Source: Burkholderiales bacterium
GTDB taxonomy: Bacteria; Pseudomonadota; Gammaproteobacteria; Burkholderiales; Burkholderiaceae_C
Reading direction: 5' to 3'
DNA length: 64,000 nt
Assembly (NCBI GenBank): GCA_016185015.1
Contig: JACPOI010000036.1
Coordinates: forward strand, 186,001 to 250,000
Shown: positions 32,630-41,863 of the stretch, in pieces
Layout: each line of letters starts with the position of its first letter
Numbering within the stretch: the first letter of the stretch is position 1
Position numbers and translations under genes: made by a program
The notes under the pieces: model-generated
What the model was told of the DNA's origin: nothing
Seen by the model: the letters and a program-made list of their open reading frames with translations, nothing else
Database searches by the model: none

Positions 32630-33538
32630 TCAGTTCTTGACTTCTTCGAAGGTGAAGGCGGTGGCGAGCTTGATCAGCGCGTACTCCAGCACCAGGCCCA
32701 CGATGCCGATCACGAAGATGGCGATGATGATGTTCTTGACGTTGAGGTTGTTCCACTCGTCCCAGACCCAGAAGCCGATGCCCACGCCGCCGGTCAGCAT
32801 TTCGGCCGCGACGATCACCAGCCAGGCTGTGCCGACGGCCAGGCGCACGCCGGTCAGCATGTAGGGCAGCACGGCGGGGAAGAGGATCTTGGTGACGATC
32901 TTCCATTCCGAGAGCTGCAGCACACGCGCCACGTTCATGTAGTCCTGCGGCACGCGCTGCACGCCCACCGCGGTGTTGATGATCATGGGCCAGATCGAGC
33001 AGATGAAGATGGTCCAGATGGCCGCCGGGTTGGCGCCCTTGAAGACCAGCAGGCCGATGGGCAGCCAGGCCAGCGGCGAGACCGGGCGCAGCAGGCTGAT
33101 CAGCGGGTTGAACATGCGGCTCAGGAAGGTGAAGCGCCCGATCATGAAACCGGCCGGGATGCCGACGATGGCCGCCAGGCCGAAGCCCAGCGCCACACGC
33201 TCCAGCGACATCAGCACGTTCCAGCCCACACCCTGGTCGTTCGGGCCCTTGCGGTAGAACGGGTCGCTGAAGACGTCGAGCGCCTGCTTGAAGGTCTCGA
33301 CCGGGCTGGGGATGCTGCCCTTGCTGGTGAGCGACACCAGGGCCCAGATCCCGATCAGCAGGGCCAGGCCCAGCACCGGCGGGATCACGCGCTGCCACAG
33401 GCCGCGCCAGTCGTAGCCCGGCGTCTTGACGGCCTCCACGGCGGGGGCTGCCGGGGTCGCTGCCTTTTTCCCGCCGGTGGGCGGGAGGGGAACGGGGGTC
33501 GCCCGTTCCAGGGGGGTATGAAACACGGCGCTGACCAT
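32630..33538 (-). CDS. nrtB: nitrate ABC transporter permease
   Basis: A 302-residue inner-membrane permease of the NrtB/SsuC type with about six helices after a Pro/Ala-rich cytoplasmic N-terminus (about residues 1-45). The EAA-like loop that contacts the ATPase is visible (YMNVARVLQLSEWKIVTKILFPAVLPYMLTG). Start at 33538 (MVSAVFHTPLE); the upstream open frame overlaps the binding-protein gene and is not used. It lies between nrtA and the ATPase gene. Confidence 0.9.
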   Translation of the reverse strand: MVSAVFHTPLERATPVPLPPTGGKKAATPAAPAVEAVKTPGYDWRGLWQRVIPPVLGLALLIGIWALVSLTSKGSIPSPVETFKQALDVFSDPFYRKGPNDQGVGWNVLMSLERVALGFGLAAIVGIPAGFMIGRFTFLSRMFNPLISLLRPVSPLAWLPIGLLVFKGANPAAIWTIFICSIWPMIINTAVGVQRVPQDYMNVARVLQLSEWKIVTKILFPAVLPYMLTGVRLAVGTAWLVIVAAEMLTGGVGIGFWVWDEWNNLNVKNIIIAIFVIGIVGLVLEYALIKLATAFTFEEVKN

Positions 33539-33560
33539 GATGGCTTCCTTTGCTCGGCCC

Positions 33561-34805
33561 TCAGGCCTTGATCTTGAAACTGTCGGCGTACTTCTTCGGG
33601 TCCTTGCCGTCCCAGACCACACCGTCGATCATCTTGCTGGTGCGCATCACGTCCTTGGGCACGGAGGCCTTGGCGGCGGTGGCGGCCTGCTTGTAGATGT
33701 CGATCTGGTTGATCTGCTTGGCCACGGCCAGGTAGTCCGGGTGCTCTTTCAGCAGGCCCCAGCGCTTGTGCTGGGTGAGGAACCACATGCCGTCGGAGAG
33801 GTAGGGGAAGCTCGCCTTGCCGTCGTTGTAGAACTTCATGTGGTTGGCGTCGTCCCAGGTCTTGCCCATGCCGTCCTGGTAGCGGCCCAGGATGCGCTGG
33901 TTGATCGCGTCCACGCTGGTGTTGACGTAGCTCTTGTCGGCCACGGTCTCGGCCATCTTCATCTTGTTGGACAGGCTCGCATCGATCCACTGGCCGGCTT
34001 CGATGATCGCGGCCGTGACAGCGCGCGCGGTGTTCGGGTACTTCTTGACGAACTCGCCGGTGGTGCCCAGCGCCTTCTCCGGGTGGTCCTTCCAGATGTC
34101 CTGCGTGGTGACCGCGGTGACGCCGATGCCGTCGATGATGGCGCGGTGGCCCCAGGGCTCGCCCACGCAGTAGCCGTCCATATTGCCTACGCGCATGTTC
34201 GCCACCATCTGGGGCGGCGGCACGGTGATGACCTTGGCGTCCTTCATGGGGTTGATGCCGGCCGAGGCCAGCCAGTAATAAAGCCACATGGCGTGTGTGC
34301 CGGTGGGGAAGGTCTGGGCGAAGGTGTATTCGCGCTTGTCCGTGGCCATGAGCTTGGCCAGGCTGGTGGCGTCCACCGCGCCCTTGTCCGCCAGCTTCTT
34401 GGACAGGGTGATGGCCTGGCCGTTGTTGTTCAGGCTCATCAGGATGGCCATGTCCTTCTTGGGGCCGGAGACACCCAGGTGCACGCCGTAGATCAGGCCG
34501 TAGAGCACGTGGGCCATGTCCAGTTCGCCGTTGACCAGCTTGTCGCGCACGCCGGCCCAGCTGGCTTCCTTGCTGGGGATGATCTTCACGCCGTACTTCT
34601 GGTCGATGCCCAGCACCGAGGCCATGACCACGCTGGCGCAGTCGGTCAGCGGGATGAAGCCGATCTTCACTTCCTTCTTCTCGGGCGCATCCGAACCGGC
34701 GGCGTAGACGGCGGCACGCAGGGCGGGGTCGATGCCGACGGCGCCGACGGCAGCGGTTTGCAGCACGGCGCGGCGGCTGAGTTTGGCGTTCAGAAGATCA
34801 GGCAT
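33561..34805 (-). CDS. nrtA: nitrate-binding ABC transporter periplasmic protein
   Basis: A 414-residue binding protein of the NrtA/CmpA family. It begins with a twin-arginine-like signal (LSRRAVLQTAAVGAVG), followed by KIGFIPLTDCASVVMAS, the family's first binding-site strand. Other family marks are WAGVRDKLVNGELDMAHVL, GTHAMWLYYWLASAGINP, VGNMDGYCVGEPWGHRAI and LWFLTQHKRWG-like text near the end. It captures nitrate in the periplasm. The export signal argues against its being the cytoplasmic sensor NasS, which is a homologue. The AAGGAG ribosome-binding site fits ATG 34805. It is the first gene of the operon controlled by the leader at 34833-34987. Confidence 0.92.
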   Translation of the reverse strand: MPDLLNAKLSRRAVLQTAAVGAVGIDPALRAAVYAAGSDAPEKKEVKIGFIPLTDCASVVMASVLGIDQKYGVKIIPSKEASWAGVRDKLVNGELDMAHVLYGLIYGVHLGVSGPKKDMAILMSLNNNGQAITLSKKLADKGAVDATSLAKLMATDKREYTFAQTFPTGTHAMWLYYWLASAGINPMKDAKVITVPPPQMVANMRVGNMDGYCVGEPWGHRAIIDGIGVTAVTTQDIWKDHPEKALGTTGEFVKKYPNTARAVTAAIIEAGQWIDASLSNKMKMAETVADKSYVNTSVDAINQRILGRYQDGMGKTWDDANHMKFYNDGKASFPYLSDGMWFLTQHKRWGLLKEHPDYLAVAKQINQIDIYKQAATAAKASVPKDVMRTSKMIDGVVWDGKDPKKYADSFKIKA

Positions 34806-34832
34806 GAAAACTCCTTGTGGCGATGAAGAAAA

Positions 34833-34899
34833 CAAGAAAGGCGTCCTCACCGAGCCGCCACGTCTGGATGACGCGGCCATGCTCCGTGGGGACGCCTTT
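34833..34899 (-). terminator. leader terminator upstream of nrtA
   Basis: On the minus strand AAAGGCGTCC (34899-34890) pairs with GGACGCCTTT (34846-34837). The T-tract after it is interrupted (TTTCTTGTTTT), so termination may be less complete than in the nirB and narK leaders. Same outer stem sequence as the other two leaders. Confidence 0.82.
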
Positions 34900-34916
34900 G
34901 TCCGTACCGTTGGCCA

Positions 34917-34957
34917 CATCCGCCGTTGGACGGGCTGCCGGTTGACCTGGAGTGGTC
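34917..34957 (-). promoter_or_regulatory. ANTAR-type hairpin pair, nrtA leader
   Basis: Hairpin 1 (34957-34944) is GACC, loop ACTCCA, GGTC; the loop has six bases and A1 but C at position 4. Hairpin 2 (34932-34917) is CGTCC, loop AACGGC, GGATG with one G-T pair; the loop is identical to that of the nirB leader and has A1/G4. Position between the sigma54 promoter and the terminator matches the other two leaders. Confidence 0.72.
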
Positions 34958-35124: not shown

Positions 35125-35769
35125 CTAAAGCAGATCGGCCACGTCGAGCATGCGCTGCGCGACCTCGGCCAGTTTCATGCCCTTGTCCATGGCGGTCTTG
35201 CGCAGCTTCTCGTAGGCCAGCTGTTCGCTCAGGCCCTGGCGCTGCATGAGCAGGCCCTTGGCGCGGTCGATGGTCTTGCGGTCCTTGAGCTCGGCGCTGA
35301 GCTCGTCGAGCTCGTTGCGTGTCTCGGCCAGTTCATGGCGCAGGGCCTGCTCGTGCTGGAACCGCGCCAGGGCCACGTCCAGGATGGGACGGATGCGCTC
35401 GGCCGAGAGACCGGCCACGATATAGGCCGTCACGCCTGCGGCCACGGCGGCGCGCACGTGCGAGGTGTCCTGGTCGTTGGTGAACATGACGATGGGGCGC
35501 GGCGCATCGCGCGTGGCCATCACCACGTGCTCCAGCGCGTCGCGCGCGTCGCTCTCGGCGTCGACGATCACCATATCGGGTTGCAGCTGCGCCAGGCGCT
35601 CGTTGAGGAAAACGTCGGCCGGCAGCGAGGCGACCAGGTTGAAGCCGCTCTCCAGCAGACCGATGCGCAGGCTGCGCGAGCGCTCGGCCTGCTGCAGGGC
35701 GTCTTCGTCCCCGGGGTCACCGACCCCCAGGTCCGAAGTCACCACCACGATACGCAAGGCTTCATTCAT
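35125..35769 (-). CDS. nasT: ANTAR-domain antitermination regulator (NasT-like)
   Basis: A 214-residue response-regulator-like protein. The N-terminal receiver domain (about 1-130) has a central D70 (MVIVDAESD). A coiled helix (135-165) leads to the ANTAR RNA-binding domain (about 158-212: LKDRKTIDRAKGLLMQRQGLSEQLAYEKLRKTAM...). NasT proteins bind two hexaloop hairpins in leader RNA and prevent termination when nitrate or nitrite is present. Three matching leaders occur in this window (before nirB, narK and nrtA). In Pseudomonas and Paracoccus NasT is held inactive by the sensor NasS; no nasS is next to this gene. ATG 35769 has only a weak ribosome-binding site. Confidence 0.88.
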   Translation of the reverse strand: MNEALRIVVVTSDLGVGDPGDEDALQQAERSRSLRIGLLESGFNLVASLPADVFLNERLAQLQPDMVIVDAESDARDALEHVVMATRDAPRPIVMFTNDQDTSHVRAAVAAGVTAYIVAGLSAERIRPILDVALARFQHEQALRHELAETRNELDELSAELKDRKTIDRAKGLLMQRQGLSEQLAYEKLRKTAMDKGMKLAEVAQRMLDVADLL

Positions 35770-35840
35770 AGAGGGATCAACTTGCAAGAAATGCGCCAAA
35801 ACACGGCGGCAGGTTTGCCGCTTGGCATAGAATTATCCCT

Positions 35841-35930
35841 GCTCCGGGGTGTCGTCCACGCAAGTGGAGGGCTGAGATGGTCGAACCGAACCCGTGAACT
35901 TGACTCGGATCATGCCGACGTAAGAAGAGC
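35841..35930 (+). promoter_or_regulatory. TPP riboswitch (THI element)
   Basis: The aptamer core is recognisable in order: P1 strand GCTC (35841-35844) pairing with GAGC (35927-35930); GGGGT (35846-35850) pairing with ACCC (35890-35893); a variable P3 hairpin TCCAC-GCAA-GTGGA (35855-35868); the invariant CTGAGA (35872-35877); and the pyrophosphate arm GTGAACTTGACTCGG with ATCATG loop and CCGACG (35894-35919). It senses thiamine pyrophosphate and normally shuts off thiamine synthesis or uptake genes. It lies 70 nt before a LuxE-like gene, and a nested helix at 35957-35995 can hide that gene's ribosome-binding site. Confidence 0.9.
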
Positions 35931-35956
35931 TGTTTGCCAGGCCCCCGCCTCGCCAC

Positions 35957-35995
35957 ACCTTTCGGAGCACGCGCCGCCGGCGCACCAGGAAAGGT
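35957..35995 (+). promoter_or_regulatory. ribosome-binding-site sequestering hairpin of the TPP riboswitch
   Basis: ACCTTTC (35957-35963) is the exact complement of GAAAGGT (35989-35995), which contains the AGGAAAGG ribosome-binding site of the GTG start at 36000. An inner stem GCGCC (35971-35975) with GGCGC (35979-35983) closes the loop. This is a translational off-state platform placed 26 nt after the aptamer. No T-run is present, so control is by translation rather than termination. Confidence 0.75.
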
Positions 35996-35999
35996 CATC

Positions 36000-37106
36000 G
36001 TGGCAGAAGCAGTACACCCATCGTCGCAGCAGGCAGCCGCTCTGGTTTCGGAGCTGTTGGCGTTCATCGCGCGACCGGACGAGGACGATCACAGCTTCAA
36101 TGCCCTGGCCCTGCGCCTCTTCGCCCATCAGTTCCAGCACAACACGGCTTTCCAGAAGTTCTGCCAGCAGCGCGGCCGCACGCCGCGTTCGGTGAGGCAC
36201 TGGCGCGACATCCCGGCCGTGCCCATCAACGGTTTCAAGGACCTGACACTGAGCTGCACGCCGCCCGAGGCCTGCGAACGTGTGTTCATGACCAGCGGCA
36301 CCACGCGCGGCGATGTGAAAGGCCGGCACTACCACCCGCAGCTGCAGGTCTATGACCTGTCGATGACGCAGAACTTCCGCCAGCGTTTCATGGCCGGCCG
36401 TGAACGCATGCGCATGGGCATCCTGTTTCCCAGCGAACAGCTCATGCCCAACTCCTCGCTGGCGCATTACCTGGCGCTGGCCCTGCACCAGTTCGGTACG
36501 CCCGAGAGCCGTTATTACCTGAACACCGAGGGTCTGCAGCTGGACGCGCTCTGCACCACGCTGGCGCAGGTGCAGGCCAGCGGCGAGCCGTTTGCCTGGC
36601 TGGGCGCGAGCTACAGCTTCGTGCACCTGATGGATGCGCTGCAGGCACGCGGCCTGAGCTTTCGTTTGCCCGTCGGCAGCCGCCTGCTCGATACCGGCGG
36701 CTTCAAGGGCCAGTCGCGCGAGATGGACATGGACGCCTTCTACGCATCCCTTGCCTCGACTTTCGGTGTGCCGCGCAGCGCCTGCATCAATATGTATGGC
36801 ATGACGGAACTCAGCACGCAGTTCTACGACGCGGGCAACGCCCAGCTGCCGGCTGTCAAGTCCGGCCCGCACTGGATTCGCACGCGGGTACTGGACCCGC
36901 TCACGGGGCAGGAGATGCCCGAGGGTGAACGCGGCATCCTGGCGCACACGGACCTGGGCAACTTCAATTCCGTCACCACCATCCTCACCGAAGACGTGGG
37001 CATGGCCGTGGCGGGCGGTTTCCTCTTGCTGGGCCGCGCCCAGGGCGCGCAGGCCAAGGGCTGCTCGCTGGCGGTGGACGAATTCCTGCGGGCGGCACAG
37101 TCATGA
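36000..37106 (+). CDS. LuxE-like acyl-protein synthetase under TPP control
   Basis: A 368-residue member of the LuxE/acyl-protein synthetase family (adenylate-forming fold). It has an ATP-binding serine/threonine loop (FMTSGTTRGDVKGRHYH), MYGMTELSTQF, HTDLGNFNSVTTILTEDVG, and a C-terminal cysteine in AKGCSLAVDEFL (C355), the position of the acyl-accepting cysteine in LuxE. In luminous bacteria LuxE activates a fatty acid as acyl-AMP and passes it through this cysteine to LuxC. No luxAB is present, so luminescence is excluded. The GTG start at 36000 has the sequestered AGGAAAGG site; it overlaps the LuxC-like gene by 4 bp. The true substrate is unknown, probably a carboxylate linked to thiamine. 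Confidence 0.88.
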   Translation: MAEAVHPSSQQAAALVSELLAFIARPDEDDHSFNALALRLFAHQFQHNTAFQKFCQQRGRTPRSVRHWRDIPAVPINGFKDLTLSCTPPEACERVFMTSGTTRGDVKGRHYHPQLQVYDLSMTQNFRQRFMAGRERMRMGILFPSEQLMPNSSLAHYLALALHQFGTPESRYYLNTEGLQLDALCTTLAQVQASGEPFAWLGASYSFVHLMDALQARGLSFRLPVGSRLLDTGGFKGQSREMDMDAFYASLASTFGVPRSACINMYGMTELSTQFYDAGNAQLPAVKSGPHWIRTRVLDPLTGQEMPEGERGILAHTDLGNFNSVTTILTEDVGMAVAGGFLLLGRAQGAQAKGCSLAVDEFLRAAQS

Positions 37107-38554
37107 AAATCACCGCGGGTTATCTGCCGGGCCTGAAATCCAGCGAGGTGCAGTGGCACACGCTGGGCTTTGGCGCCGGTGCACAGCAGGTTGATGTGCT
37201 GGTGCCGCAACTCATGCCGGCCCAGCTGCACACTCTGGCCGCGCATGTGCGTAGCCAGGGGCGCACGCAGCTCAAGCCCATGCCGGTGTCGCAGATCATC
37301 GCCGCGATCGACCGCGCCATCGAGCGCCTGCTCAACCCGGCCGATCCCTATCGCCTGGAGCTGGAACTGCTGCTGCCGCGCATCTCCGGCTTCGACGCGG
37401 AGATGGTGCGCCTGGGCCTCAACGCCTACCTCAAGACCTTCCGCGCGCCGCAGCTGCAGCGTTTCGTGGCCGAGGACTTCAGCAACCCCAAGCTGCTTGA
37501 CGAATTCCAGCCACGCGCCAAGGGCGGCATGGCGCGCGCGCTCGGCCCCGAGCTGCTGGTGCACGTCTGGGCCGGCAATGTGCCGGGCCTGCCGCTGTGG
37601 AGCCTGGTCTGCGGCCTGCTGGTCAAGGCGCCGGCCATCGGCAAGGTGGCCAGTGCCGAACCCCTGTTCGCTTCGCTGTTCGCGCGCCTGCTGGCCGAGG
37701 TGGAGCCGCGCCTGGCCGAGGTGCTGGCCATCGTCTGGTTCAAGGGCGGCGACACGGCCAGCGAGCGAGCGTTGTTTGCTGAAGCCGACACGGTGCTGGC
37801 CTATGGCGGCAACGACACGCTGACAGCGCTCAGGCAGCAGGTGCCGGTGAGCACGCGTTTCCTGCCGCACGGCCACAAGCTCAGCGTAGGGCTGGTGTCG
37901 GCCGCTGCGCTCGACGTGGCCCGTGCCCCGGCCACGGCACGCGCCGCCGCGCTGGACGTGGTGCGTTACGAGCAGCAGGGCTGTTATTCGCCGCACACCT
38001 ATTACGTGGCACGCGGCGGCCGCGTCACGCCGCGCGAGTTCGCACAGCAACTGGCCGGTGAGCTCGCCGCGCTCCAACATAAGTTTGCGCGCCGCACGCT
38101 CACGCTGGAAGAGTCCGCCAGCGTGGCTGGCTGGCGCCAGGGCCAGGAGCTGCAAGGTTTTGCTGGCGCTGGCGTGGAACTGCTGGGGGATGCCAGTGCC
38201 GCCTGGTGTGTGGCCTATGCCGAACAGGCCAGCGCCTTGCTGCCGGGCGCATTGAACCGCACGGTGCAGGTGCAGGCTGTGGACCATCTGACAGACACGC
38301 TGCCCCTGCTGGCTGCACAACGCGAGGTGCTGCAGACCGTGGGCCTGGCCGCCGCGCCGCAGGAACTGCATGCGCTGGCCGAACGACTGGGCGCGGCCGG
38401 TGCCACGCGCATCTGCGCCCTAGGCCAGATGACCGCGCCTGAAGCCGGCTGGCACCACGACGGGCGTTTCAGCCTGCTGGACCTGGTGCGCATGGTCGAG
38501 CTGGAACAGTCGGCCGAGGACGCGGCCGAGGCCTACGCGCCGTACAGAGATTGA
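37103..38554 (+). CDS. LuxC-like acyl reductase
   Basis: A 483-residue protein of the LuxC/acyl-CoA reductase family (aldehyde-dehydrogenase fold). It has the nucleotide-site segment VWAGNVPGLPLW (GNVPG 158-162) and the catalytic cysteine in YEQQGCYSPHTYYV (C294), equivalent to the LuxC acyl cysteine in DQQACSSP. LuxC takes an acyl group and reduces it with NADPH to the aldehyde. The ATGA overlap with the LuxE-like gene fits a two-subunit carboxylic acid reductase. Followed by ABC importer genes. The acyl chain or ring it reduces is not known. Confidence 0.88.
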   Translation: MKITAGYLPGLKSSEVQWHTLGFGAGAQQVDVLVPQLMPAQLHTLAAHVRSQGRTQLKPMPVSQIIAAIDRAIERLLNPADPYRLELELLLPRISGFDAEMVRLGLNAYLKTFRAPQLQRFVAEDFSNPKLLDEFQPRAKGGMARALGPELLVHVWAGNVPGLPLWSLVCGLLVKAPAIGKVASAEPLFASLFARLLAEVEPRLAEVLAIVWFKGGDTASERALFAEADTVLAYGGNDTLTALRQQVPVSTRFLPHGHKLSVGLVSAAALDVARAPATARAAALDVVRYEQQGCYSPHTYYVARGGRVTPREFAQQLAGELAALQHKFARRTLTLEESASVAGWRQGQELQGFAGAGVELLGDASAAWCVAYAEQASALLPGALNRTVQVQAVDHLTDTLPLLAAQREVLQTVGLAAAPQELHALAERLGAAGATRICALGQMTAPEAGWHHDGRFSLLDLVRMVELEQSAEDAAEAYAPYRD

Positions 38555-38556
38555 TC

Positions 38557-39315
38557 ATGAGTACCGCGCCCTTCCTCGACATGCGGCAGGTGAGTTACAC
38601 CTTCCCCAGCTGGCCGCCGGTGGTGCAGGGCGTGGACTGGGACATTGCGCCCGGCGAGTTCCACTGCCTGGTGGGGCGCAGCGGCTGCGGCAAGACCACG
38701 CTGCTCAAGCTCGCGGCCGGCCTGCTGCAACCCGACGAGGGCACGGTGAGTCTGCAGGGGCAGGCTATCCGCAAGCCCGGCCCCGGTACGGGCTTTGTGT
38801 TCCAGCAGCCCACGCTGCTGGAATGGCTCACTGTGCTGGACAACGTGCTCTTGCCGCTCACCCTGCAGCGCACGCCCACTGACGCCGACCGCGCACGCGC
38901 TGAACAGCTGCTGGCGCAGATGGGCCTGAGCGCCTACCTGCGTCACCATCCGCGCCAGCTCTCGGGCGGGCAGCAGAGCCGCGTCGCCATCGCGCGCGCG
39001 TTGCTGCTCGATCCGCCCATCCTGCTGATGGACGAGCCCTTCGCCGCGCTCGATGCCATCACGCGCGAGGAGCTGCAGGACGAGTTGCAGGCCATGTGTC
39101 GTGCGCGCGGCACCTCGGTGTTTTTTGTCACGCACGACATCGCCGAGGCGGTGTACCTGGCCGACCGCGTGGCGGTGATGGACGCCGGGCGCATCCGCCA
39201 CGACATCCGCGTGGACCTGCCGCGCCCGCGCGGGCGTGAGCTGCGCTATGGCGCGGCTTTCAACGCGATCTGCGCCGAGCTGCGGCAGGCCATGGACGGG
39301 GAGGGGGCTGAATGA
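38557..39315 (+). CDS. ABC transporter ATP-binding protein (thiamine-precursor type)
   Basis: A 252-residue ABC ATPase of the ThiZ/SsuB/TauB group: Walker A GRSGCGKTT, Q-loop FQQPTLLEW, signature LSGGQQSR, Walker B ILLMDEPFAALD, H-loop VTHDIAEA. ATG at 38557 is two codons inside an open frame beginning at TTG 38551 and is preferred. It overlaps the permease gene by 4 bp. In TPP-riboswitch operons this subfamily usually powers uptake of pyrimidine precursors of thiamine. Confidence 0.88.
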   Translation: MSTAPFLDMRQVSYTFPSWPPVVQGVDWDIAPGEFHCLVGRSGCGKTTLLKLAAGLLQPDEGTVSLQGQAIRKPGPGTGFVFQQPTLLEWLTVLDNVLLPLTLQRTPTDADRARAEQLLAQMGLSAYLRHHPRQLSGGQQSRVAIARALLLDPPILLMDEPFAALDAITREELQDELQAMCRARGTSVFFVTHDIAEAVYLADRVAVMDAGRIRHDIRVDLPRPRGRELRYGAAFNAICAELRQAMDGEGAE

Positions 39316-40073
39316 TCCGCTACCCGCGTCTTCTCGCTTTCGCCTTGCTGATCGTCCTGCTGCTGGCCTGGGAATGGGCTGTGTCGGCCTTCAGGTTTTC
39401 GCCGCTGGTGCTGCCTGCGCCCAGCGTGATCGGCGCGGCGCTGCTGCGCGGTCTGCAGACGGGTTACCTCTGGCCGCACATCGCGCAGACCCTGCTGGAA
39501 CTGGGCCTGGGCCTGGCGCTGGGTGTGGCTCTGGGTTTTGCCGGGGGCGTGCTGCTGGGCGAGTCGGCCGTGCTGCGCCGTGTGCTCATGCCCTATGTGG
39601 TGACCAGCCAGGTGATCCCGAAGCTGGCGCTGGTGCCGCTCTTCATCGTCTGGTTCGGCTTCGGCACCGTGCCCACCGTGGTCATCACCGCGCTGATCTG
39701 CTTCTTCCCGCTGCTGGAAAACACGCTGACCGGCATCGCCCAGGTGGACACCGCGCGGCTGGAGCTCTTCCGCATGCTGGGCGCGACCCGCCGGCAGACC
39801 CTGTGGCGGCTCAAGGTCCCCGCCGGCCTACCCGCCATCCTAGCCGGCCTGCGTGTGGCCGTGGTGCTGGCCCTGGTGGGCGCCGTGGTGGGCGAGTTCA
39901 TCGGCGCCAGCAAGGGCCTGGGCGCGCTGATCATCGCCGCCCAGGGCTCCATGGACACGCCCCTGATGTTCGCCGTGCTGCTGCTGATCACCGTCATCGG
40001 CCTGCTGCTGTACGAGGCCACGCTCTGGATCGAGCATCGCTTGCTGCAACCCTATTCCCAATCTTTCAATTGA
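39312..40073 (+). CDS. ABC transporter permease (ThiX/SsuC-like)
   Basis: A 253-residue permease with about six hydrophobic helices and an EAA-type loop (LELFRMLGATRRQTLWRLKVPAGLPAILAG) for docking the ATPase. Same family as sulfonate, taurine and hydroxymethylpyrimidine-precursor permeases. It overlaps both flanking genes, so it is made with them. Start ATG 39312 overlaps the ATPase stop (ATGA). Confidence 0.88.
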   Translation: MIRYPRLLAFALLIVLLLAWEWAVSAFRFSPLVLPAPSVIGAALLRGLQTGYLWPHIAQTLLELGLGLALGVALGFAGGVLLGESAVLRRVLMPYVVTSQVIPKLALVPLFIVWFGFGTVPTVVITALICFFPLLENTLTGIAQVDTARLELFRMLGATRRQTLWRLKVPAGLPAILAGLRVAVVLALVGAVVGEFIGASKGLGALIIAAQGSMDTPLMFAVLLLITVIGLLLYEATLWIEHRLLQPYSQSFN

Positions 40074-40087
40074 TGAGGACGACCAAA

Positions 40088-41074
40088 ATGAAACGACATT
40101 TCCTGCGCACCCTTGCTGCGCTTGCACTCAGTGCCCTGTGCACCGGCGCCTGGGCCCAGGCCAAGCTGGACAAGGTGACGATTGCCGGCTGGAGCGGCCC
40201 CATCTCCGAGGTCACCAACCTGCTGGTCGAGCCCGACAAGGGCTTCTTCCGCGCCCAGGGCATCGACATGGTCTACATGCCCGGCGCTGGTGGTGGCGAT
40301 GCCGTGCGCAACCTGCTCAGCGGCCAGGCCGACGTCGCCTTCACCGACCCCGGCTCGCTCTACGCCGCGCTGGACAAGGGCGAGAAGCTGCGCGTGATCT
40401 ACGACATCTACCCGCAGAACATCTTCAACGTGGTGGCGCTCAAGAGCAGCGGCATCAGCAAGCCTGCGGACCTCAAAGGCAAGAAGATCGGCGTCTACAG
40501 CCTGTCCAGCGGCACGCTGACCAATCTGCAGCTGCTGCTGAACCAGGCCGGCCTGAGCGAAAAGGACGTGACCATCGTCGTCACCGGCCTGCTGAACTTC
40601 GCACCGCTGATGCAAGGCCAGGTGGACGCCACCGCCGCCACCGACACTGGCCTGCTGGTGGCCCGCGCCAAGGGCGTGGGTGAGGTCAACGTGATGGAAG
40701 TGCGCACCTCGCTCAACGTTTCCAGCGACATCTTCGTGGTGCGCGAGGAGACCTTCCAGCAGAAGAAGGCCGTGCTCAAACGCTTCCTGGCAGCCTACCG
40801 CGACAGCATGTCATGGATGATGACCCAGCCGCAGGAAGCCGCCGCGTTGGCGGTCAAGCGCGCCATCAATGGCCAGAACGAAGCCGTGAACCTGGAAGTC
40901 ATCAAGCTGCGCAATGCCTCCAGCGTCTCGCCGCTGACGCAACAAAAAGGCCTGGGCGCCATCGACGTGGAGGCCTTGCAGAAGGGCGCCGACGCCTGGA
41001 AGAAGATCGGCCTGATCCAGCGCGATCTGAAGATGAAGGACGTGGTGAGCAGCGAGCTGCTGCCAGGTAAATAA
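40088..41074 (+). CDS. ABC transporter substrate-binding protein (NMT1/THI5-like)
   Basis: A 328-residue secreted binding protein with a Sec signal peptide (MKRHFLRTLAALALSALCTGAWA, cleaved at about 23) followed by KLDKVTIAGWSGPISEVTNLLVEPDKGFFRAQGIDMVYMPGAGGGDAVRNLLSGQADVAF, the NMT1/THI5-like fold used by ThiY. The family binds formylaminopyrimidine or related thiamine precursors but also sulfonates and nitrate. ATG 40088 is preferred over an in-frame ATG at 40073 because a GAGGAC site precedes it. With the riboswitch it indicates uptake of a thiamine-related molecule. Confidence 0.87.
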   Translation: MKRHFLRTLAALALSALCTGAWAQAKLDKVTIAGWSGPISEVTNLLVEPDKGFFRAQGIDMVYMPGAGGGDAVRNLLSGQADVAFTDPGSLYAALDKGEKLRVIYDIYPQNIFNVVALKSSGISKPADLKGKKIGVYSLSSGTLTNLQLLLNQAGLSEKDVTIVVTGLLNFAPLMQGQVDATAATDTGLLVARAKGVGEVNVMEVRTSLNVSSDIFVVREETFQQKKAVLKRFLAAYRDSMSWMMTQPQEAAALAVKRAINGQNEAVNLEVIKLRNASSVSPLTQQKGLGAIDVEALQKGADAWKKIGLIQRDLKMKDVVSSELLPGK

Positions 41075-41076
41075 GC

Positions 41077-41844
41077 ATGAACTTCCAGGGCCAGGTCATC
41101 CTCGTCACCGGCGCCAGCCGCGGCATCGGCGCGGCCATCGCGCAGGCCTTCGCGGCCGAGGGCGGTTTTGTGGTCGTCAACTACCTGCGCAACGAGGCCG
41201 CCGCCGACGCGGTGGTGGCGCAGTGCAAGGCCGTGGGTGGTGATGCCTGGGCCATCCGTGCCGATGTCAACGATCCGGCCCAGGTGCAGGCCCTGGTGGC
41301 GCAGGTGCAGGCCGAACTGGGCCGCATCGACGTGCTGGTCAACAACGCCTTCGCGCCCTACCGCTTCGACCCCGAGCAGCGCAAGCGCTTCTGGGAAACG
41401 GATTGGGCTGACTACCAGACCCAGTTCGACGGCGCCGTGCACGCGACCTACAACGTCTGCCAGGCCGTGCTGCCCGGCATGCGCCAGCGCGCGCAGGGCT
41501 GCATCGTCAACCTGGCCAGTGACCTGGTCGAGCGGCCCGTGGTGCCCTACCACGACTACGCCACAGCCAAGTCCGCCTTGGTGGGTTTCAGCCGCAACCT
41601 TGCGGCCGAACTCGGCCCGCTGGGCATCCGCGTGAACTGTGTGGCGCCGGGCCTGGTCTACCCCACCGACGCCAGCCGCGCGACCAAGGAGGACGTGAAA
41701 GAAGCCATCGTGGCGCAGACGCCTTTGCGGCGCATCGCCCGGCCCGAAGACGTGGCGGGGCCCGTGCTCTTCCTCGCTTCGGACTGGAGCCGGTTCATGA
41801 CCGGGCAGGTGCTGGTGGTGGATGGCGGCCTGGTCATGAAGTGA
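41077..41844 (+). CDS. short-chain dehydrogenase/reductase (FabG-like)
   Basis: A 255-residue classical SDR with TGASRGIG at the N-terminus, NNAF, and the catalytic Y-x3-K in YHDYATAKS; the C-terminus ([20 protein letters not shown]) is the family's usual end. It is the last gene of the TPP-riboswitch operon, 2 bp after the binding-protein stop. After LuxE- and LuxC-like steps give an aldehyde, an SDR could reduce it to an alcohol, so the operon would encode carboxylate-to-alcohol reduction. This reaction is inferred from gene order. Confidence 0.82.
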
Positions 41845-41863
41845 TGGCCTAAACTTGCCGGAT

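Follow-up and report, generated by a model that had tools for sequence, protein, structure and literature searches.

What does a thiamine pyrophosphate (TPP) riboswitch control when the genes behind it code for LuxE- and LuxC-like enzymes, families best known from bioluminescence? The question is raised by an operon of a Burkholderiales bacterium (GenBank assembly GCA_016185015.1), found in a window of 64,000 nucleotides (contig JACPOI010000036.1, positions 186,001 to 250,000, forward strand), which is the whole stretch of DNA analyzed here. In this operon a TPP aptamer is followed after 56 bases by luxE, luxC, the genes for the ATPase and permease of an ATP-binding cassette (ABC) importer, an NMT1-type substrate-binding protein gene and a short-chain dehydrogenase/reductase (SDR) gene, with adjacent genes overlapping or separated by at most 14 bases. 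We propose that this is probably a TPP-repressed operon through which a pyrimidine carboxylate is imported and reduced to 4-amino-5-hydroxymethyl-2-methylpyrimidine (HMP), salvaging the pyrimidine half of thiamine.

The aptamer matches RF00059 over the full model (positions 1-105) with 54.8 bits against a gathering score of 54.3 (E 5.5e-8), which makes it a member of that family by score and predicts TPP binding and control of expression. A covariance model built from the aptamers of relatives gives it 85.6 bits, the window's aptamer being one of the 24 seed rows of that model. The RF00059 match and the family profiles thus bear out the preliminary description, which had recognized a TPP aptamer and six coupled genes at this place; the locus was correctly given, and the aptamer start moves from 35841 to 35835 (Table 1).

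Both LuxE and LuxC score well above the cut-offs of their Pfam families and retain the residues expected of a thioester relay. The C-terminal Cys355 of LuxE is invariant in all 85 aligned rows and is presumably the acylated cysteine, and Cys294 of LuxC, invariant in 88 of 88 rows, aligns with the cysteine of the QQAC motif in the LuxC of the LuxC-LuxE fatty acid reductase (7xc6). The same structure is the best sequence match of LuxE, and the folds nearest to the LuxE model (predicted local distance difference test score, pLDDT, 88.4) are the PaaK phenylacetate-CoA ligases, which act on an aryl acid, and other small-acid adenylating enzymes. The SDR has its Tyr161-x3-Lys165 motif conserved in at least 97% of 73 rows, and we propose that it is an aldehyde-to-alcohol reductase. 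One could suppose that LuxE and LuxC reduce fatty acids and that the riboswitch is linked to them incidentally, as the family names and the automatic annotations 'long-chain fatty acid--CoA ligase' and 'acyl-CoA reductase' would have it. However, the two proteins fall far below the bioluminescence equivalog cut-offs (NF052244 and NF052251; 67.9 against 550 bits for LuxE and 92.1 against 750 bits for LuxC), and the aptamer is conserved in both Pseudomonadota and Bacillota, so that this explanation is highly improbable; the operon is not a bioluminescence LuxCE fatty acid reductase system.

The importer has the layout of the ThiXYZ type, namely an NMT1-type binding protein, a permease and an ATPase behind a TPP riboswitch. 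By sequence, the best phmmer match of the binding protein is the unassigned putative exported protein 3qsl (3.5e-13), with THI5 (7e-9) and ThiY (2.2e-4) behind it. Its model (pLDDT 89.9) is closest among PDB folds to 4nmy, which is thiamin-bound, and then to ThiY (3ix1), followed by 3qsl, SsuA-type proteins and THI5, with an identity of 18-20% to the two nearest solved proteins. This likeness in fold to ThiY and a thiamin-binding protein suggests that it could bind the pyrimidine of thiamine. Since it has a signal-like N-terminal stretch, recognized by eye, and its gene adjoins those of the permease and ATPase, it is a transport protein and not an enzyme.

Table 1. Features of the luxE operon, in coordinates of the window
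Feature	Coordinates	Strand	Evidence
TPP riboswitch aptamer (THI element)	35835-35943	+	RF00059, 54.8 bits
Likely expression platform	35952-36004	+	Shine-Dalgarno/anti-Shine-Dalgarno pairing in minimum-free-energy fold
LuxE-family ATP-dependent acyl-protein synthetase (ANL superfamily), 368 aa	36000-37106	+	PF04443, 81.8 bits (cut-off 24.9)
LuxC-family acyl-thioester reductase, 483 aa	37103-38554	+	PF05893, 298.8 bits (cut-off 21)
ABC importer ATPase	38557-39315	+	PF00005, 120.7 bits
ABC importer permease	39312-40073	+	PF00528, 107.2 bits
NMT1/THI5-type substrate-binding protein, ThiY-like	40088-41074	+	PF09084, 164.9 bits
FabG-like SDR	41077-41844	+	PF13561, 218.4 bits; NF006393, 305.4 bits (cut-off 292)

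The arrangement is widely conserved. Relatives were collected by a LuxC scan of named genomes, and the best 80 of 284 relatives constitute the 80 loci considered below (L and G numbers are our handles for loci and genomes). The aptamer model was seeded with 23 aptamers standing before this operon and one geneless aptamer (L001); a narrow TPP motif misses about half of the aptamers, those with short P3 arms or with thiD in between, and the counts use a wider motif together with the covariance model. Of the 74 loci whose sequence reaches upstream of the operon, 72 have by the latter an aptamer 5' of luxE or of a thiD-luxE pair; 21 of these are seed rows, which match by construction, and 51 are not. 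The other six loci end upstream of the operon, one of them still with a partial aptamer. Among the 68 loci that extend 6.3 kb or more downstream, 67 have all six genes complete and in the same order, the exception being L078 with luxE, luxC and SDR only; the riboswitch-luxE-luxC-ABC-SDR order, which the preliminary description had suggested looking for elsewhere, is therefore a recurrent one. Where operon-linked aptamers of relatives pass the RF00059 threshold they score 56.6-85 bits, and the threshold is missed in 7 of 18 loci checked in which our own covariance model detects an aptamer. Their sequences vary: betaproteobacteria show several types, and the type found in Azospirillum and other alphaproteobacteria has a longer P3 arm; as the operon remains the same, it has therefore been kept behind unlike TPP aptamers. 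LuxE homologs in 398 genomes of the same phylum form two classes, one above 580 bits (6 genomes, including the window's own) and one at or below 67.5 bits (14 genomes), and an aptamer precedes all five high-scoring LuxE genes other than that of the window and none of the 14 low-scoring ones, a 12-bit match at L118 (E 0.15) not being counted. Thus, the riboswitch-luxE operon is not a local accident.

In the window no thi genes adjoin the operon, as had been noted, but this does not hold among the relatives. The gene for ThiD, the kinase of HMP and HMP phosphate, opens the operon, directly ahead of luxE, in 10 of the 80 loci, mostly from Ramlibacter, and also in L135; in several of these loci thiG- and/or thiE-like genes are found 3' of the SDR gene. 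A second group, comprising 6 of the 80 loci and L133, has thiD on the opposite strand after the SDR gene; farther along, thiG and thiE follow in five of the six and in L133, the sequence of L042 ending at thiD.

Further evidence comes from plasmid records, which carry the luxE-luxC-SDR cassette beyond Pseudomonadota. Priestia megaterium has the six-gene form; its aptamer scores 49 bits (E 1.7e-8 when 751 bases are searched) and falls short of the gathering threshold. The form TPP-luxE-luxC-SDR occurs on two Pantoea plasmids and in G538. In Niallia taxi two tandem TPP riboswitches (L140, 5781-5889 and 5968-6077) are followed by thiW and the genes for an NCS2 permease, LuxE, LuxC and the SDR. 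The order TPP-NCS2-luxE-luxC-SDR is found on a Lactiplantibacillus plasmid, and a mobilizable Levilactobacillus plasmid codes for the same proteins, preceded by a TPP match that scores 67.6 bits. The proteins of the Bacillota are 41-59% (LuxE), 37-51% (LuxC) and 52-67% (SDR) identical to those of the window, and the copies examined retain the reactive cysteines and the Tyr/Lys pair of the SDR. Hence, in the three Bacillota plasmids of Niallia, Lactiplantibacillus and Levilactobacillus an NCS2 nucleobase permease stands in for the ABC importer; it exceeds the cut-offs of PF00860 and of the NCBIfam 'purine/pyrimidine permease' subfamily and lies below those of the xanthine and uracil permease models. 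As a nucleobase-type permease takes the place of the importer, a substrate with a pyrimidine-like ring is favored.

The same exchange could point to a different source of HMP, in which a heteroaromatic or nucleobase-like acid that is not a breakdown product of thiamine is converted, with additional steps, independently of ThiC. Three import arrangements (ABC, NCS2 or none in the operon) accompany the same three enzymes, NCS2 permeases presumably carry nucleobase-like compounds, and thiC is also present in 46 of 59 operon genomes. Nevertheless, neither the gene maps nor the annotated regions reveal any enzyme constantly linked to the operon beyond the known genes, and the reduction of the pyrimidine acid to HMP needs none; we consider this alternative unlikely. 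On the plasmids themselves, the cassettes at L143 2947-7878 and L141 1390-6321 (TPP-NCS2-luxE-luxC-SDR) lie on small Lactobacillaceae plasmids of 21 kb (mobilizable) and 10 kb and have identical protein accessions across two genera, which suggests a recent transfer of a vitamin salvage cassette. On a Pseudomonas silvicola plasmid (H59, CP093281.1 367858-368887) LuxE is split into three aligned pieces and may be a decayed copy.

The distribution of thiamine genes indicates which half of the vitamin is concerned. We compared 59 genome handles with the operon, corresponding to 58 distinct genomes (G014 and G125 have identical coordinates), with 80 genomes of the same family without it. G093 (55% complete, with a contig-edge match) was left out, as were 28 of the 107 genomes without a match; 32 of the 80 loci were not in the genome searches, and G028, with only a distant LuxE (28% identity) and with ThiC, is counted among the controls. 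ThiC is present in 46 of the 59 operon genomes and has no match in 13, holders of the latter kind including Ramlibacter montanisoli, R. lithotrophicus, R. cellulosilyticus and R. alkalitolerans; G144 (L062), with a 30-residue scrap of ThiC, and G140 (L058), with ThiC in four overlapping pieces, one of them with an internal stop, are both counted as ThiC-positive. On the LuxC tree of operon holders the thiC state changes at least seven times, with L062 coded as thiC-less although G144 is outside the 13, and with several long branches. Full-length ThiG is found in 58 of the 59. Among thiC-less genomes it is retained by 12 of 13 operon holders, G154 (L078) being the only one without it, as against 2 of 36 controls (Fisher p 1.2e-8, uncorrected for kinship). 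In these ThiG counts a 59-residue piece at a contig edge in G041 does not rank as full length. Because thiC-less controls almost without exception also lack the thiazole branch, whereas operon holders retain it, this thiC-minus, thiG-plus profile is the pattern of a pyrimidine hole filled by the operon. TenA, the known pyrimidine-salvage enzyme, matches in 28 of the 58 operon genomes; it is without a match in the window's own genome and in nine of the 13 operon genomes that lack thiC.

These counts also bear on salvage of the thiazole half, in which 4-methylthiazole-5-acetic acid would be reduced to hydroxyethylthiazole for use by ThiM. The side chain of the thiazole requires exactly such an acid-to-alcohol reduction, and the Niallia operon has thiW, which we take to code for a predicted thiazole transporter component. 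Against this, ThiM is full length in just 7 of the 59 operon genomes, its other matches being weak and partial, and thiazole synthesis through ThiG is retained almost throughout; we regard this route as very unlikely.

Drawing on the riboswitch match, the protein families, the conserved operon, the linkage to thi genes, the transporter swap and the thiC-minus, thiG-plus pattern, we infer a pathway whose ligand, substrate, order of reactions, cofactor and product would be as follows. When TPP is low the riboswitch would permit translation of luxE. The ABC importer with its ThiY-like binding protein would take up a pyrimidine carboxylate, most likely 4-amino-2-methylpyrimidine-5-carboxylate, a compound reported as a thiamine metabolite (Neal and Pearson 1964, as cited in PMC7780320). 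LuxE would adenylate the acid and bind it in thioester linkage to its C-terminal cysteine; from there the acyl group would pass to Cys294 of LuxC, which would reduce it with NADPH to the aldehyde, and the SDR would convert the aldehyde to HMP. Finally, ThiD would convert HMP to its pyrophosphate (HMP-PP), to be used by ThiE. The earlier proposal that a thiamine-linked acid is imported and reduced to an alcohol is thus well supported by the riboswitch linkage in two phyla, the thi genes, the ThiY-like fold and the permease swap; among the substrates it had put forward the carboxylated pyrimidine is favored, the thiazole acid is disfavored by the ThiG and ThiM counts, and thiamine acetic acid is also less likely.

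Several observations weigh against pyrimidine salvage. Absence of thiC is rarer in operon genomes than in controls (13 of 59 against 36 of 80, p 0.007), and the window's own genome has thiC; a tracking of the operon with missing thiC, which had been raised as a check, therefore fails overall and survives only as the retention of thiG in thiC-less holders. At least 7 of these 13 are metagenome bins by their titles, in which absence may be incompleteness; among the 13, a full TenA occurs in three genomes and a partial match in one more. Two alphaproteobacterial bins (L058 and L092) have the complete six-gene operon and no upstream TPP match, and the importer gene is absent from the operon in the Pantoea plasmids examined, in L126 and in L078. 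In the fold search with LuxE, PaaK-type ligases come first and 7xc6 is missing from the 50 matches listed. The LuxE and LuxC families are known for long-chain acids, and the ThiW family of the Niallia operon is, as we take it, predicted to act on thiazole.

In a further alternative, thiamine acetic acid is imported and its thiazole side-chain acid is reduced to thiamine, which would be phosphorylated by an unrecognized kinase; TPK (PF04263) is absent from all 59 operon genomes. Thiamine acetic acid is a known metabolite (reference cited in PMC7575681), and the PDB fold closest to the binding protein is the thiamin-bound one. The lack of TPK, at first sight contrary to a thiamine product, was dropped as proof, since all 36 thiC-less controls are TPK-free too; it is uninformative on thiamine use, and another route of thiamine use is probable in the family. 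On the other hand, the ThiG retained by nearly every operon genome would be needless under thiamine salvage, and the thiD genes within the operon and the NCS2 permeases in place of the importer argue in the same direction. We consider this alternative improbable, and pyrimidine salvage remains the reading that we prefer. As to the controls themselves, 34 of the 36 thiC-less genomes are without full-length thiG and none has TPK, a route to TPP that PF04263 leaves unexplained.

Following the pyrimidine reading further, it is about an even prospect that bacteria without thiC, several Ramlibacter isolates among them, obtain the thiamine pyrimidine mainly through LuxE, LuxC and the SDR in place of ThiC, with environmental pyrimidine carboxylate as an unrecognized vitamer of B1 and the cassette as a mobile one with exchangeable importers, spread over Alpha-, Beta- and Gammaproteobacteria and Bacillota.

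The region between aptamer and luxE suggests how control might be exerted. The start of luxE is probably the GTG at 36000. In the minimum-free-energy fold ACCUUUC (35957-35963) can pair with the Shine-Dalgarno sequence GAAAGGU (35989-35995), and the GCCAC of the segment GCCAC-ACCUUUC (35952-35963) can pair with the start-codon region GUGGC (36000-36004). Hence, the riboswitch likely acts translationally by hiding the luxE start, a mechanism that would rest on this pairing, as the fold of the whole region is no more stable than shuffled sequences (z 0.29). A TTCGGAG-like element is found 3' of the aptamer in 34 of 43 loci examined.

The source genome (4.02 Mb in 66 contigs) has three TPP matches, standing before the luxE operon, before thiC and before no gene. 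The last (C47:37904-38008; L001 1501-1605) is flanked by a ferredoxin-NADP-reductase-like gene on one side and by the 3' end of an opposite-strand thiD on the other. In L049-type relatives the luxE operon occupies exactly this position, and the geneless aptamer therefore looks like a riboswitch that remained after the operon was lost or moved. Next to the operon in the window, the gene at 41855 after the SDR gene is presumably tsaD-like and is outside the operon. Upstream, on the reverse strand, genes for a nitrate-type ABC permease (TIGR01183, 252.9 bits) and an NMT1_2-type binding protein (32630-34919) adjoin one for an ANTAR-domain regulator (35125-35799), together likely an ordinary nitrate assimilation cluster.

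If the pyrimidine reading is correct, B1 salvage includes a step of a new chemical kind, the reduction of a carboxylic acid to the precursor alcohol. Oxidized breakdown products of thiamine, treated as waste, would then be usable vitamin sources, the vitamin auxotrophy predicted for many soil, freshwater and plant-associated bacteria would need revision, and the automatic names 'long-chain fatty acid--CoA ligase' and 'acyl-CoA reductase (bioluminescence)' would mislead for the LuxE and LuxC of the operon. Among the open-access papers searched (subscription papers being outside the search), we found none linking LuxE or LuxC to thiamine or TPP riboswitches, and 'LuxE' does not occur in the main text of Sun 2013 (PMC3766115). 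The operon is accordingly best described as a variant of TPP-controlled precursor salvage, the chemistry of which we did not find described in that literature.

This variant shares features with several known systems. Like the LuxC-LuxE fatty acid reductase (7xc6), it combines PF05893 and PF04443 proteins from paired genes with reactive cysteines; unlike it, the operon has no luxA, luxB or luxD among its six genes, scores below the equivalog cut-offs, has a LuxE model nearest to PaaK, and brings a TPP riboswitch, an importer, an SDR and thi genes. Its binding protein shares its fold and Pfam family with the fungal HMP-P synthase THI5/NMT1, but is a transport protein beside permease and ATPase genes. 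With the pyrimidine auxotrophs of the Pelagibacterales that use ThiV, as presented in passages of PMC10881298, it shares the absence of thiC, the possession of thiG and thiE and a TPP-linked uptake of pyrimidine vitamers; the vitamers named there are HMP, 4-amino-5-aminomethyl-2-methylpyrimidine (AmMP) and formylaminopyrimidine (FAMP), with no acid among them, whereas the operon implies an acid and three enzymes for its reduction. A parallel in logic is the salvage of FAMP by ThiXYZ/ThiY and TenA, with which the operon has in common an NMT1-type protein, an ABC importer, TPP control and the recovery of a pyrimidine; there the pyrimidine is deformylated and deaminated, by contrast with the operon, which has neither TenA nor YlmB and would instead reduce an acid.

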